A stretch of DNA of 64,000 nt from an uncultured Psychroserpens sp. (GTDB lineage: Bacteria; Bacteroidota; Bacteroidia; Flavobacteriales; Flavobacteriaceae): the NCBI RefSeq assembly GCF_947501425.1, contig NZ_CANMVN010000002.1:186001-250000 (forward strand). Direction: 5' to 3'. Numbering within the stretch: position 1 is the first letter of the stretch; every line of letters begins with the position of its first letter. The translations under genes and the position numbers were made by a program. A model generated the notes under the pieces. That model did no database searches. It saw only the letters and a program-made list of their open reading frames with translations, and had not been told where the DNA came from. This document shows positions 45,309-49,307 of the stretch, one piece after another.

Positions 45309-45831
45309 AGTGTTCGTTTTGTTGATTTAATGATTTGATATGTTCTTGAATATCTTTTAAAAGCTGAAGTCGGGTTTGAAGATTTTCAACTAAAGCTTCT
45401 ATAACCATAATATTGTTATTGTCAGCTTTAAATTGTTTTGAGATATCCTTATAATCTTTATCCAGATCATCCAGTTTAGCTCTGTATCGTTTTACTAATT
45501 TATCATCATTAGCAATACTTATAAAACTCTGCCATTCTTTATCAATATTTGCCAGATATTGCTGTTCTATAAGCTCAATCTGAGTTTCTATTGGTGCTTC
45601 TTCTACAACTTGATTAGTGACATTTTCAGTAGTTTTGAAGATGGTAAAGGCCAGTGCCACAAAAAGGATCACAATAGCAGCTACTTTAAACATATAATTA
45701 GTACTGAGTTTTGACTCACGTCTTGGTCTTGACGCTTTCAACTTCTCATAAAATTCTTGTCTATGGCTATCTGGTAAACGTTTACCTGACGCGTCTTCGT
45801 CTTTAAAAAAATCTCTAATATCTTGCTTCAT
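45289..45831 (-). CDS. Anti-sigma-factor-like single-span membrane protein
   Basis: A 180-residue protein with a cytosolic N-terminus of about 46 residues (KQDIRDFFKDEDASGKRLPD), one membrane span (YMFKVAAIVILFVALAFTIF), and a periplasmic coiled-coil-rich part (VKRYRAKLDDLDKDYKDISK and LVENLQTRLQLLKDIQEHI). Location and topology fit an anti-sigma factor for the sigma gene it overlaps by 17 bases, although I see no zinc-binding HxxxCxxC motif. It also overlaps the downstream gene by 20 bases, so the operon is tightly coupled. Confidence 0.78.
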   Translation of the reverse strand: MKQDIRDFFKDEDASGKRLPDSHRQEFYEKLKASRPRRESKLSTNYMFKVAAIVILFVALAFTIFKTTENVTNQVVEEAPIETQIELIEQQYLANIDKEWQSFISIANDDKLVKRYRAKLDDLDKDYKDISKQFKADNNNIMVIEALVENLQTRLQLLKDIQEHIKSLNQQNEHYETINI

Positions 45832-46381
45832 TGTAATATGTTTTTATAAGGTTTTGAAGTTGTAATCGACCTCGTCTTAAATGTGTTCTGCTGGTTTGTT
45901 TAGGAATATCAAGAATGCTTGATATTTCCTCGTGATCATAACCTTCAATAAGGTATAACTTAACTACAATCTGATACTTATTTGATAACTTCTCAATTGC
46001 ATTGAGTACTTGTTGCTTGGTGATTTCTGAATGAAACTCCCAATTATTATCATCTTCTATCGTTAAATCATTTAGTTCTGATTCTATAAAATTCAATCGC
46101 TTCTTTTTCAATTGATCAATACACTGGTTAATCACTATTCGCTTGAGCCAGACTCCAAAAGTGAAATCAGACTGGTAACTATCCAATTTTGTAAATGCTT
46201 TTAGAAAGCTGTCTTGCATAGCATCCTTTGCGTCTTCTTCATTTAAGTATCGACAAGCAATTTGAAACATAGCATCACAGTAAAGATCGTATAGCTGCAT
46301 CATTGCTGCTTCATCTCCTTTCTTGCAGCGATCAATTAAAATGGCATTTGCTTTAGACATTTGGTATTGGTTAGTGTTCAA
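45815..46381 (-). CDS. ECF RNA polymerase sigma factor
   Basis: A 188-residue ECF sigma. Region 2 is seen in MQLYDLYCDAMFQIACRYLN, EDAKDAMQDSFLKAFTKL and FGVWLKRIVINQCID. Region 4 is seen in YLIEGYDHEEISSILDIPKQ and TSRTHLRRGRLQLQ. Two starts are possible: ATG at 46381, or the second Met (46360, MSKANAIL). The promoter TGAAAC-N16-CGTT at 46389-46414 would place transcription start within a few bases of 46381, so either the message is nearly leaderless or the 46360 start is the real one. It heads a four-gene operon with the anti-sigma-like, DUF4097-like and 205-residue exported proteins. Confidence 0.93.
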   Translation of the reverse strand: MNTNQYQMSKANAILIDRCKKGDEAAMMQLYDLYCDAMFQIACRYLNEEDAKDAMQDSFLKAFTKLDSYQSDFTFGVWLKRIVINQCIDQLKKKRLNFIESELNDLTIEDDNNWEFHSEITKQQVLNAIEKLSNKYQIVVKLYLIEGYDHEEISSILDIPKQTSRTHLRRGRLQLQNLIKTYYNEARY

Positions 46382-46388
46382 TATTAAA

Positions 46389-46414
46389 AACGACAGAAAA
46401 ACTCCTGCGTTTCA
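46389..46414 (-). promoter_or_regulatory. ECF-type promoter TGAAAC-N16-CGTT
   Basis: On the minus strand TGAAAC (46409-46414), exactly 16 bases, then CGTT (46389-46392). This is the classical ECF -35/-10 layout (compare SigW-type TGAAAC-N16-CGTA), directly before the ECF sigma gene, and suggests autoregulation. Confidence 0.65.
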
Positions 46415-46469: not shown

Positions 46470-47786
46470 GTGAGTCAAGATTATAACAATCCTGCGTTTA
46501 AAAAACTACTTCAAAAACTCCAGGAAGAGAGTTGGCAGTTAGAACTGCTTATTTCTGGTTTTGCCATTTTTGGTTTGTTTCAGGCAGCTAACCCATTAGG
46601 TATTGCAGCACAAGAAGCTAGAAATAATGAACAAATATTCTTGTTTATTATTCTTATCGTAGCTTCAGTGTCATGTTATATTTTATTATTTAATCTTCTA
46701 TTGCATGTCATTTTACGAGGACTATGGATTGGTGCTTTAGGACTCCGATATGTCTCTGGTGATATTGATTATGAAGAATTAAAATACAGTCCGAGATTCA
46801 CAAAATACCTCAGAAAAAAAATTGGTTCTTTTGATCGCTATATTGGAAGTTTAGAAAACTATTGTAGCATTATTTTCGCAATATCTTTCCTATTGATTTT
46901 TTATGTTATTGCCTTTACACTAACAATAGCGTCTATAGCACTTATTGCTTTTTATCTCATAGATAATGACAACAGTATACTCATGACTGTTGGTATTATT
47001 CTTGTGATTTTTATTGTCTTTGGAATGTTTTTTACATTTATTGACTTTATTACCCAAGGATGGTTAAAGAAAAAGAAATGGACATCTGCTATTTATTTCC
47101 CAATTTATTGGGTTTTTAGTTTTATTACACTCTCTTTTTTATACCGACCACTAGTTTATAATTTTTTAGATAACAAATTTGGTCGAAGAATCAGTCTTAT
47201 TTTAGTTCCTTTATATTTTCTTATTTTAATAGGAACAAGTCTTAGATATGAAAAGTCTAACTACATAAAACTAGGAACATCATCTAATGAATTTAGAGCA
47301 AACACATCTAATTATGAAGATTTATTAGACAAGGATAAAGGTCAGTTCATAAGAAATGCCGCTATTCCGTCTAAAGTGATTTCAGAAAATTATCTGAAAG
47401 TATTTATTGTCTATAATGAATATACCGAAGATGTCATTTTTGATTTCAAACCAGAATTAAAACCAAAAAACGATGTCCGTGGATTAGGATCTGACATTCG
47501 TTTTAGTAATGATTTTAGTGACAATTCAAGACGTGATAGCCTAAGACCTATATATATGAAAACTCTTAACGACATCTATTCGTTTAAAGTAGATTCTCTG
47601 GAGTTAGACTCAGAATTTGTTATTAGCGAAAGTAAAACTGGACAGTTTGGATTTGAAACCTATTTAGATTTAAAAGATGTGGCCAATGGGAAACACCTGT
47701 TGAAAGTCTATAGAAAGCGACTCAGAAATAAGGACACGTTATACAGCAGACGTGCAACCATCCCGTTTTGGCATTTTAAAGATTAA
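46470..47786 (+). CDS. Multi-pass membrane protein of unknown function
   Basis: The frame opens at a GTG at 46440, but I prefer the GTG at 46470 (438 residues) because a promoter-like element lies between the two. The N-terminal half has about five hydrophobic spans (FLFIILIVASVSCYILLFNL, IIFAISFLLIFYVIAFTLTI, LILVPLYFLILIGTSL). The C-terminal 170 residues are soluble (VIFDFKPELKPKNDVRGLGS, FGFETYLDLKDVANGKHLL), probably periplasmic. I do not recognise the family. It is divergent from the first ECF sigma gene, and its 3' end overlaps the second anti-sigma-like gene by 4 bases. Being wedged between two sigma modules suggests envelope function. Confidence 0.72.
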   Translation: MSQDYNNPAFKKLLQKLQEESWQLELLISGFAIFGLFQAANPLGIAAQEARNNEQIFLFIILIVASVSCYILLFNLLLHVILRGLWIGALGLRYVSGDIDYEELKYSPRFTKYLRKKIGSFDRYIGSLENYCSIIFAISFLLIFYVIAFTLTIASIALIAFYLIDNDNSILMTVGIILVIFIVFGMFFTFIDFITQGWLKKKKWTSAIYFPIYWVFSFITLSFLYRPLVYNFLDNKFGRRISLILVPLYFLILIGTSLRYEKSNYIKLGTSSNEFRANTSNYEDLLDKDKGQFIRNAAIPSKVISENYLKVFIVYNEYTEDVIFDFKPELKPKNDVRGLGSDIRFSNDFSDNSRRDSLRPIYMKTLNDIYSFKVDSLELDSEFVISESKTGQFGFETYLDLKDVANGKHLLKVYRKRLRNKDTLYSRRATIPFWHFKD

Positions 47787-48205
47787 GCCTCCAGTCGCTT
47801 ATCAAAATAACGCTTAAGCAACGGAATTTGCACACAAAACATGAGTCCGAATAATACTATCGAATATATCATAGTTTGAGACATATTAAAACCTGATAAT
47901 GGATTGGAAATTTCATAATTCAGGAAACGATCAATACCTATCTCACTCAACCAGCCGCTTTCAACATTAGAAGAACCTAAAACCAAATATCCTAAAACAC
48001 CAACAAAAACAATTGCAAGTAAAGACCAAACACGTTTAGATATCAAAGGCACGTAGGTCGTAGCTTTAGAACTATTTAAGGCCGTTATTTGAGACATGAC
48101 CGTTTGTGTAAAATCAAATGACGGACTCTCTATTGCTGATTCCCCTATCACTTTTCGAGATAGGTTATCTAAATGTTTATCTGCGTTCTCGTTCATAATG
48201 TTCAA
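47783..48205 (-). CDS. Anti-sigma-like two-span membrane protein
   Basis: A 140-residue protein. A cytosolic N-terminus of about 70 residues (HLDNLSRKVIGESAIESPSF, DFTQTVMSQITAL) is followed by two membrane spans near residues 68-86 and 110-133. It overlaps the sigma gene by 29 bases, so translation is coupled. The topology is that of a short anti-sigma factor, here without a zinc motif. Start could be at 48205 or the Met three codons later. Confidence 0.75.
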   Translation of the reverse strand: MNIMNENADKHLDNLSRKVIGESAIESPSFDFTQTVMSQITALNSSKATTYVPLISKRVWSLLAIVFVGVLGYLVLGSSNVESGWLSEIGIDRFLNYEISNPLSGFNMSQTMIYSIVLFGLMFCVQIPLLKRYFDKRLEA

Positions 48206-48767
48206 TAATTTCTGGTTCTAATTCCGACTTTAATATAGTTGCCAATTTTTTTCGGCATCTAAACAATTTCACCTTAATTGAATTTACAGTGATACCTACT
48301 ATCTGAGAAATGTCATCTAAAGATAGGTCATCAAAATAATATAAGGTCAATAAAAAACTATCTTGACTTGGCAATCGTTTAATACATCGCTGTATCGCTT
48401 CCTCTCGCTCTTTAGTTTCTATTTGGTCTAATGCGGTATCCATGGTTTTTACCTGATGTGCTGTAAATTCGTTGATTTCAACATCATTCAAATGCTTTTT
48501 GTTCTTCTTTATACGATCCAAACATGTATTGTAGGCAACACGATAGATCCACGTTGAAAACTTAGAATCACCTTTAAACCTATCTAAAGACCTATACGTT
48601 TTTATAAATGTATCTTGTGCTACCTCTTCAGCTTCTTCTCTATTTTTCAGCATTCGCAACGCCAAAGTGAACACCAGATCTTTATAATTATCCACCAGTA
48701 TCGAAAATGCATTTGTATCGCCTTCGATGATTTGATTGATGAGTATTTGGTCGTTGTTGGTGGTCAT
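48177..48767 (-). CDS. ECF RNA polymerase sigma factor
   Basis: A 196-residue ECF sigma. Region 2: FSILVDNYKDLVFTLALRML, EEAEEVAQDTFIKTYRSLDR and FSTWIYRVAYNTCLDRIKKN. Region 4: YYFDDLSLDDISQIVGITVN and SIKVKLFRCRKKLATIL. The first Met at 48767 is the only plausible start. Its own predicted promoter (TGTAACC-N16-CGTC) would put the transcript start only a few bases before the ATG, so the message may be almost leaderless. The partner anti-sigma-like gene overlaps its end. Divergent is a DUF6249-like membrane gene with an identical promoter. Confidence 0.94.
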   Translation of the reverse strand: MTTNNDQILINQIIEGDTNAFSILVDNYKDLVFTLALRMLKNREEAEEVAQDTFIKTYRSLDRFKGDSKFSTWIYRVAYNTCLDRIKKNKKHLNDVEINEFTAHQVKTMDTALDQIETKEREEAIQRCIKRLPSQDSFLLTLYYFDDLSLDDISQIVGITVNSIKVKLFRCRKKLATILKSELEPEIIEHYERERR

Positions 48768-48777
48768 TTTGTGTTAA

Positions 48778-48804
48778 GACGACTTCATTAACCTTTAGGT
48801 TACA
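48778..48804 (-). promoter_or_regulatory. ECF promoter for the second sigma gene
   Basis: On the minus strand TGTAACC (48798-48804), 16 bases, then CGTC (48778-48781). The same motif with the same spacing occurs on the opposite strand at 48834-48860. Confidence 0.72.
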
Positions 48805-48833
48805 GTTTCAGAAGAAAAAAAAATTAAAAAATC

Positions 48834-48860
48834 TGTAACCAAAATTCAAAACCTATCGTC
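48834..48860 (+). promoter_or_regulatory. ECF promoter for the DUF6249-like gene
   Basis: TGTAACC (48834-48840), 16 bases, then CGTC (48857-48860), about 45 bases before the ATG at 48906. It mirrors the divergent promoter at 48778-48804, so both genes are probably controlled by the sigma factor encoded here. Confidence 0.72.
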
Positions 48861-48905
48861 ATAAGCTCAGAACATTTAAAATTAATCAATTAAAAACGAA
48901 ACATT

Positions 48906-49253
48906 ATGGGATCAGAATTAATCATTATACCAATCATATTTGGTGCTATCTTTGGAGTCTTCTATTTATATTTTTCAACACGAAACAAGGAACGCTTAGC
49001 ACTTATTGAAAAAGGCGCAGATGCCAGTATTTTTATGAAAGGCAAACAACAAACAGCACCAATTTGGAAGGTCCTTATACTCAACCTCGCTCTATTACTT
49101 ATGGGAATAGGTGTTGGAACATTCATTGCATCTGTACTGGATAATTACACCACATTAGACGAAGACGCTGTGTATCCTGCCACTATATTTTTCATGGCTG
49201 GTGTTGGACTTTTTATTGGCTTTAACATGACCAAAAACTTAGATAAAGAATAA
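48906..49253 (+). CDS. DUF6249-like small membrane protein
   Basis: A 115-residue inner-membrane protein with three spans (residues about 3-24, 54-75 and 90-108). A short cytosolic loop contains TRNKERLALIEKGADASIF, the hallmark of the DUF6249 group often found beside ECF sigma factors in Bacteroidota. It is divergent from the sigma gene, and both share the motif TGTAACC-N16-CGTC, so it is probably part of that sigma regulon. A terminator follows. Confidence 0.82.
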   Translation: MGSELIIIPIIFGAIFGVFYLYFSTRNKERLALIEKGADASIFMKGKQQTAPIWKVLILNLALLLMGIGVGTFIASVLDNYTTLDEDAVYPATIFFMAGVGLFIGFNMTKNLDKE

Positions 49254-49276
49254 AACATATCTAACCAATCCATTTG

Positions 49277-49307
49277 AAAACCACTGTTAATCTGCAGTGG
49301 TTTTTTT
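49277..49307 (+). terminator. Terminator of the DUF6249-like gene
   Basis: AAAACCACTG / CAGTGGTTTT with an 8-base loop and seven T, about 25 bases after the stop codon. Confidence 0.9.

Follow-up and report, generated by a model that had tools for sequence, protein, structure and literature searches.

In the window analysed here, a stretch of 64,000 nucleotides from an uncultured Psychroserpens sp., the gap between an ECF sigma factor gene and a DUF6249 gene contains two mirror-image copies of the motif TGTAACC-N16-CGTC, one on each strand. Judging from the sequence comparisons below, these are, with a probability of about 0.9, two divergent promoters of the ECF type that are recognised by the product of the sigma gene at 48177–48767 and serve the operon of this sigma factor and its candidate anti-sigma factor on one side and DUF6249 on the other. 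The boxes, their spacing, their conservation and the gene layout are computed directly. The true evidence for the boxes is their conservation among relatives, not the coincidence of two motifs inside one gap. The features of the locus are the following:

48798–48804, minus strand: −35 element TGTAACC on the sigma side, read from the sequence; 67 of 70 homologous loci have the whole site with no more than one mismatch
48775–48781, minus strand: extended −10 element CGTC-TTA on the sigma side, from the sequence and column conservation
48834–48840, plus strand: −35 element TGTAACC on the DUF6249 side, read from the sequence; invariant in 66 aligned sites with at most one mismatch
48857–48863, plus strand: extended −10 element CGTC-ATA on the DUF6249 side, from the sequence and column conservation
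48805–48833, no strand: 29-bp A/T-rich tract (83% A+T) between the −35 boxes, a possible shared UP element
48177–48767, minus strand: ECF sigma factor, 196 aa (Pfam Sigma70_r2, 72.3 bits; Sigma70_r4_2, 50.1 bits)
47783–48205 (or from an ATG at 48196), minus strand: candidate anti-sigma factor, 140 aa, two hydrophobic segments; overlaps the sigma gene
48906–49253, plus strand: DUF6249 membrane protein, 115 aa, three predicted helices (PF19762, 55.9 bits, cut-off 33)
49276–49305, plus strand: probable intrinsic terminator past DUF6249, a 12-pair hairpin with a T tract

The gap measures 138 bp from start codon to start codon (48768–48905; the sigma gene starts at 48767 on the minus strand and DUF6249 at 48906 on the plus strand). 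A sequence-only reading of this DNA had reported TGTAACC-N16-CGTC once per strand, and both direct reading and a pattern search of the whole genome (3.70 Mb in 40 contigs) reproduce its coordinates exactly: on the plus strand, TGTAACC at 48834–48840 and CGTC at 48857–48860, and on the minus strand, TGTAACC at 48804–48798 and CGTC at 48781–48778, separated in both cases by 16 bases (17 if the −35 box is counted as TGTAAC). The further claim that such a pair is unlikely by chance is true of this particular motif, given that TGTAACC-N15-17-CGTC on either strand appears in only 2 of 20,000 dinucleotide shuffles of the gap. It does not extend to mirrored motifs in general: any exact mirrored 7+4 motif with a spacer of 14–19 bases is found in 806 of 3,000 shuffles, and those with six or more G/C in their 11 bases, like the present pair, turn up in 6 of 4,000. 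The coincidence argument is therefore weaker than stated because unspecified mirrored 7+4 motifs are frequent in so A/T-rich a gap. Genome-wide, TGTAACC-N15-17-CGTC has four matches, two of which are the pair at the locus, compared with six matches of a reversed-pattern control.

When 149 family genomes were searched with the sigma protein, 137 gave matches at E 1e-20 or better, many of them paralogues. From this match list, 70 loci were examined (the 30 best and 40 further ones), with up to 450 nt upstream scanned. The compared loci share descent and are not independent; with this reservation, 51 of the 70 loci have an exact site on the sigma side and 67 a site with no more than one mismatch, and the corresponding counts on the DUF6249 side are 57 and 66. 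The site is missing on both sides at L081, L101 and L102 and on the DUF6249 side at L094, and the same four loci lack a divergent DUF6249-like ORF, which phmmer detects in the other 66; at L081, part of DUF6249 is located about 1.1 kb off (tblastn), and a matching site is found there (G016:C122:64376). Another 80 named loci were collected via the alignment of DUF6249, in genomes that overlap partly with those of the 70-locus set. On the DUF6249 side, 77 of these match exactly and 3 with one mismatch; on the sigma side, 69 match exactly, 8 with one mismatch and 1 with two, and 2 lack the site. A sigma homologue is present in 77 of the 80. Within the genus, 20 of the 23 genomes have exact sites of both kinds (on different contigs in G390 and G409); the three genomes without the exact pair (G389, G396 and G406) also have no sigma match at E 1e-40, whereas in the family search the same query matches its own genome (G000) and G045 at 1e-109 or better. 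The orthologous gaps had been named in the sequence-only reading as the place where the proposal could fail. In these gaps, the boxes are nearly invariant, the spacers are variable, and the spacing and the flanking genes are kept, which supports, at the level of sequence, both a mirror promoter pair conserved beside the two genes and the proposal that the sigma factor drives its own operon together with DUF6249.

When the family sites are aligned by their boxes, the box columns carry 1.1–2.0 bits compared with at most 0.84 bits for the spacer columns, and TGTAACC is practically invariant. The conservation continues past the −10 box, with the consensus CGTC-W-TA on both sides. In the 67 aligned sigma-side sites, the −10 columns are C in 80%, G in 97%, T in 100% and C in 100%, with A as the third base past CGTC in 95%; in the 66 aligned DUF6249-side sites, the respective values are 89, 96, 100 and 100%, followed by T as the second base past CGTC in 96% and A as the third in 100%. 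The spacing is N16 in all 55 matches at the 30 best loci, from a scan that permitted spacers from N15 to N19. The two −35 boxes are 16–34 bp apart in 59 of the 66 loci with both sites and 43–219 bp apart in the remainder. Averaged across the 61 loci whose boxes are separated by less than 60 bp, the tract between them is 84% A+T, and the columns 11–18 bases upstream of the boxes are 89–100% A/T; this tract may serve both −35 boxes as a shared UP element.

The distance from the promoter to the gene is tightly constrained on the sigma side. CGTC ends 9–11 nt before the sigma ATG in 74 of the 77 named loci with a sigma homologue, and TGTAACC begins 33–38 nt ahead of the aligned sigma start in 67 loci of the first set; in the window, the ATG is 10 nt after CGTC, with an in-frame TAA starting 9 nt before the ATG. 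On the DUF6249 side, CGTC is 45 nt before the ATG. Transcription from ECF promoters usually starts 5–9 nt past the −10 box. Because CGTC is only 9–11 nt before its start codon, the sigma mRNA is expected to have little or no leader, and the DUF6249 mRNA would have a leader of approximately 36–40 nt. For EcfF of Bradyrhizobium japonicum, the account in PMC3420878 gives a transcription start mapped 6 bp after the −10 element and a −10 element so near the start codon that the authors preferred another start codon. A start codon misplaced in the same way is unlikely here because the next methionine of the sigma factor is residue 39. In Flavobacterium psychrophilum, leaderless mRNAs account for 5.5% in the figures of PMC9723704; the predicted near-leaderless sigma mRNA falls in the group without Shine-Dalgarno sites.

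The sigma factor contains Sigma70 regions 2 and 4 only (its Sigma70_r4 match overlaps the Sigma70_r4_2 match), as is the case for ECF (group IV) factors, and the autoregulatory promoter upstream that also characterizes them has its counterpart in the sites with at most one mismatch at 67 of the 70 loci. The best NCBIfam match, NF007223 (Bacillus subtilis SigW), scores 148.1 bits, below the cut-off of 209, so that the protein is not assigned as a SigW equivalog; neither is it assigned to the GFO_1088/PG0214 family, with 109.9 bits against the NF058625 cut-off of 130. A small ORF overlaps or adjoins the sigma gene downstream in 62 of the 70 loci and has two hydrophobic segments in 52 of those. 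The corresponding 140-aa protein of the window has no Pfam match over the cut-off, no NCBIfam match and no known anti-sigma domain, and its position is what suggests an anti-sigma role. An unrecognised class of anti-sigma factors is plausible for this partner because only 6% of the Bacteroidetes ECFs have a class I anti-sigma factor nearby, as stated in the survey data of PMC7406223. The AlphaFold model of the DUF6249 protein consists of helices 3–37, 53–81 and 86–110 (mean pLDDT 74, pTM 0.43), a topology too simple for a meaningful fold comparison; a literature search on DUF6249 had a sole match, on plant kinases, judged by title. The DUF6249 transcript probably covers a single gene because a probable terminator directly follows it, a call for which the terminator scan alone is weak, with shuffles of the region averaging 0.8 such sites.

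The arrangement extends beyond the family. DUF6249 is present in 75 of 247 genomes of the phylum, at 81 places, 70 of which were examined (L205–L274). The sigma gene is divergent from DUF6249 in 55 of these loci and the layout differs in 8; among the other 7, four lack DUF6249 by profile and three lack the sigma factor by tblastn. The pattern xGWAACx-N16-xRTC is found on both strands in 37 of the 55 divergent loci compared with 0 of 5,500 shuffled gaps. By rank, such a mirror pair is present in 13 of 13 divergent loci of the family, 9 of 9 of the class and 15 of 33 of the other classes of the phylum, with the distance between the boxes reaching 762 bp. Separately, DUF6249 is upstream of the sigma gene in the same direction at L211, L215, L244, L251, L254 and L274, all from distant relatives.

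The two sites of a pair tend to share their variant bases. In all 37 phylum loci with a mirror pair, the two sides agree in the third −35 base (T in 32 and A, the GAAAC form, in 5). They agree in the −10 box in 29 of the 37, among which L217 and L227 have CATC pairs, and in all 11 box bases in 23; at L235 and L236, which had two sites on one strand, the more similar pair was counted. Within the family, the −10 boxes have changed jointly to AGTC/AGTC in four cases and to CATC/CATC in two, and are unmatched in 6 of 66 loci, which combine a sigma-side AGTC with a DUF6249-side CGTC. The main locus of G082 (L020) has this unmatched combination; the same genome has a second, paralogous cassette (L104) with CATC on both sides. 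Joint change of the boxes is what a pair kept in step with its sigma factor would resemble, and shared descent contributes to it. L104 and L103 (in G039) are distant cassettes, with 36–38% sigma identity and CATC on both sides, and could represent a split in promoter specificity.

A second, look-alike class of sites becomes apparent when the motif is relaxed. TGTAAC-N16-18-CGTC has 21 matches in the own genome of the window, the same number as the control. Fifteen of the 21 have the shorter spacing, and of these, 14 have A as the seventh base and 13 are intergenic. The shorter-spacing sites (L409–L425) precede ABC transporter genes, a rhodanese, small membrane proteins and lipoproteins, as named by eye. 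One site of this TGTAACA-N15-CGTC class is located before an ECF gene about 2 kb past the end of the window (C2:252031); the product, the only shorter-spacing target compared with a family library, belongs to the GFO_1088/PG0214 family (NF058625, 236.4 bits, cut-off 130). Thus, TGTAACA-N15-CGTC and TGTAACC-N16-CGTC probably represent separate promoter classes, each with its own sigma factor. If so, two look-alike ECF promoter classes in one genome would differ by one base and one spacer position, and cross-talk between them is possible. A regulon search with the relaxed motif mixes in sites that resemble a different ECF regulon. In addition, TGAAAC-N16-CGTT at 46389–46414 of the window (minus strand), upstream of the other ECF sigma gene (45815–46381), is a candidate promoter of yet another class.

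The sequence-only reading had also offered the motif as a search pattern for the whole regulon. In relatives, the motif finds the locus pair and, on mixed evidence, a set of candidate PF00144 genes; in the genome of the window, it adds almost nothing. Raw counts of the exact motif carry no signal outside the locus: in the 149 family genomes, there are 214 matches, 108 at the 70 loci and 106 elsewhere, and the reversed-pattern control has 225. Extending the motif to CGTC-W-TA leaves 63 of the 149 genomes with a match (8 for the control), and most of the listed matches are at the locus, with at least 11 elsewhere. Outside the pair, the own genome contains one doubtful intergenic site and one intragenic site. 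The former (C7:62760) precedes by 3 nt an ORF of 298 aa that matches nothing in Pfam; with its poor extended −10 and no similar spacer among the sites listed for 22 congeners, it is not claimed as a target. The latter (C1:497686) is rejected as a promoter given that it falls inside an ORF.

Sites were classed as promoter-like if they fell between genes and no more than 250 nt ahead of a gene in the same orientation. By this definition, 80 fetched off-locus sites include 16 promoter-like ones among 56 in sigma-bearing genomes vs 1 among 24 in genomes without the sigma factor (Fisher p 0.016), where sigma-bearing status is judged from the sigma protein search matches. Fourteen of the 80 sites were hand-picked (4 from the extended pattern and 10 from the genus list), a further 2 belong to the own genome, and one of the 80, L360, is truly the sigma-side site of G390. 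With the hand-picked sites left out and the comparison restricted to the matches listed for the exact motif in the family, the difference is 9 of 41 vs 1 of 23 (p 0.08, not significant). PF00144 beta-lactamase-family genes, a family name that is no sign of resistance, account for 9 of the 16 promoter-like targets and for 4 of the 9 in the restricted set; Pfam was run on seven of the nine candidates, all of which matched (7/7), and L329 and L359 were identified by tblastn. In the genus list, 6 of the 22 off-locus sites are promoter-like, and 4 of these 6 precede PF00144 genes. Exact sites are also found at L107 (G059) and L351 (G108), in both genomes 10–12 kb away from the sigma gene; they precede genes of similar appearance by eye, with DUF4440 and DUF3471 domains (Pfam was run on L107 only).

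Orthologous, secreted-looking PF00144 hydrolases (L379–L408, L426–L439 and L447) have such a promoter in most of the scanned relatives. That the hydrolase is a further target of the same sigma factor in some relatives is somewhat more probable than the opposite. With N15 or N16 and a single mismatch allowed, a site is present among the family orthologues in 21 of the 29 scannable loci out of 30, or in 17 of 25 without the four loci that prompted the search; among the genus orthologues (at least 48% identity), in 13 of 14 scannable loci, or 10 of 11 without the prompting loci; and among the PF00144 paralogues of the genus (at most 38% identity), in 0 of 15. All 13 family hydrolase sites with N16 are in sigma-bearing genomes, and the hydrolase gene is within about 10 kb of the sigma gene in G049, G125, G072, G024, G148, G029 and G059. 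These observations speak against a self-limited system, in which the sigma factor drives only its own operon and DUF6249 everywhere and the PF00144 sites come from other sigma factors or chance. Such a system nevertheless keeps a substantial share of the probability, although below one half, for several reasons. The 106 off-locus exact matches compare with 225 for the reversed control. None of the 15 PF00144 genes in the own genome has a site, and none of its listed matches exceeds 32% identity to the site-bearing hydrolase. The spacing is N15, as in the other promoter class, in 8 of the 21 family and 10 of the 13 genus hydrolase sites. One of the eight family N15 sites is in a genome outside the sigma-bearing set (G122), and G396, which likewise lacks a close homologue of the sigma factor, has an N15 site ahead of the hydrolase with A as the seventh base, as in the TGTAACA-N15-CGTC class. 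The −10 boxes of G096 and G077, AGTC at the sigma locus and CGTC at the hydrolase, also speak against a shared sigma factor; in G142, by contrast, AGTC is found both at the sigma-side locus and at the hydrolase.

The remaining alternatives concern the mirrored boxes themselves. The boxes could be promoters mainly of another ECF factor, for example, the GFO_1088/PG0214-family factor past the window end, given that the −35 core and the −10 box are common to both classes and that this NF058625 member (236.4 bits) has a TGTAACA-N15-CGTC-type site before its own gene. This is improbable: 14 of the 15 shorter-spacing sites have A as the seventh base, and the locus sites have C there and a spacer longer by one base; the pair has also been lost from the three congeners that lack the window sigma factor; and the third −35 base agrees on both sides in 37 of 37 phylum loci. 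Still less credible are the boxes as an operator for a dimeric DNA-binding regulator. The inverted layout and the similar distance between the boxes in most loci would fit a dimer, but that distance ranges between 16 and 219 bp in the family and reaches 762 bp across the phylum, yet the −35/−10 spacing is N16 in 55 of 55 matches, and the distance from −10 to ATG is nearly fixed on the sigma side. As for chance repetition of the boxes, the abundance of unspecified mirrored 7+4 motifs in the shuffled gap (806/3,000) is in its favour, but the rarity of this motif (2/20,000) is not, and the conservation refutes it, leaving a negligible probability. Divergent promoters of the adjacent sigma factor, the preferred reading, have to accommodate two contrary observations, namely, that the sides do not always change jointly (six of 66 loci have AGTC on one side, that of sigma, and CGTC on the other) and that both sites fit the tested pattern in only 15 of the 33 divergent loci from other classes.

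From the conserved boxes and gene layout, we infer which sigma factor reads the boxes, where transcripts start, that a signal acts on the system, and that DUF6249 has a role in it. The membrane partner, the candidate anti-sigma factor encoded at 47783–48205, would release the sigma factor, with which RNA polymerase would start at both promoters. The minus-side transcript would yield more sigma and anti-sigma factor, that is, positive feedback plus a brake, and the plus-side transcript would yield the DUF6249 membrane protein. In some relatives, the same sigma factor may also drive the secreted PF00144 hydrolase, which, if correct, points to an envelope-stress response. More tentatively, and on present evidence doubtful, the locus could be a phylum-wide self-contained cassette, in which a sigma factor with a leaderless mRNA is combined, through mirror-image promoters that command both genes alike, with DUF6249 as a dedicated sensing or resetting protein, the promoter specificity changes as a unit, duplicates are orthogonal (as in the CATC cassette of G082), and PF00144 is recruited in some lineages. 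Alternative-sigma promoters are little known in Bacteroidota; the locus provides a motif, TGTAACC-N16-CGTC-W-TA, the likely sigma factor and a natural series of variants, as well as a first handle on the DUF6249 family.

A full-text literature search, judged partly from abstracts, returned nothing recognised on this promoter pair or on DUF6249 together with an ECF sigma factor; several known systems are comparable in part. The promoter proposed for ECF group 16 in PMC3420878, tGTAACc-N16-CGAA, has the same −35 element and the same N16 spacing as the locus but differs in the −10 box, CGAA there and CGTC here; with CGTC on both strands, the locus is not placed in the ECF16 promoter group as that source outlines it. 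EcfF, which comes from Bradyrhizobium japonicum rather than from a flavobacterium, is autoregulated, as proposed here, but has its own motif, GTAAC(g,a)-N14-15, and the passages on it in PMC3420878 make no mention of DUF6249. The SM6 promoter class of Flavobacterium psychrophilum, as tabulated in PMC9723704, has a CGT box in common with the locus; by eye, its Table 2C genes (ABC ATPase, rhodanese-related, ECF/anti-sigma) resemble the TGTAACA-N15-CGTC set more than the locus. The Bacteroidetes RpoE-like group of ECF factors, ECF03, is mentioned in PMC7406223 and PMC10880074. In the Dma/Das systems of Bacteroides (ECF21), as described in PMC13088901, an ECF sigma factor of Bacteroidota is paired with an anti-sigma factor in the membrane, the arrangement proposed here. 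The Dma2 protein is built from one membrane helix, a long region resembling a tether and a barrel at the C terminus, whereas the candidate partner at the locus has 140 aa and two hydrophobic segments.

The closest parallel in architecture is with autoregulated ECF operons in general. Most ECF sigma factors, according to the overview in PMC3817407, autoregulate from a promoter immediately upstream, and the locus resembles such operons in having a sigma-2/sigma-4-only factor, an adjacent membrane partner and its own upstream −35/−10 promoter. It differs from the operons described there in the second matching promoter facing DUF6249 and in the sigma-side promoter nearly touching the start codon. 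The mechanism of autoregulation is thus of a known kind; the distinctive features of the locus are its mirror arrangement, which recurs in several classes of the phylum, the link to DUF6249 and the near-leaderless geometry.
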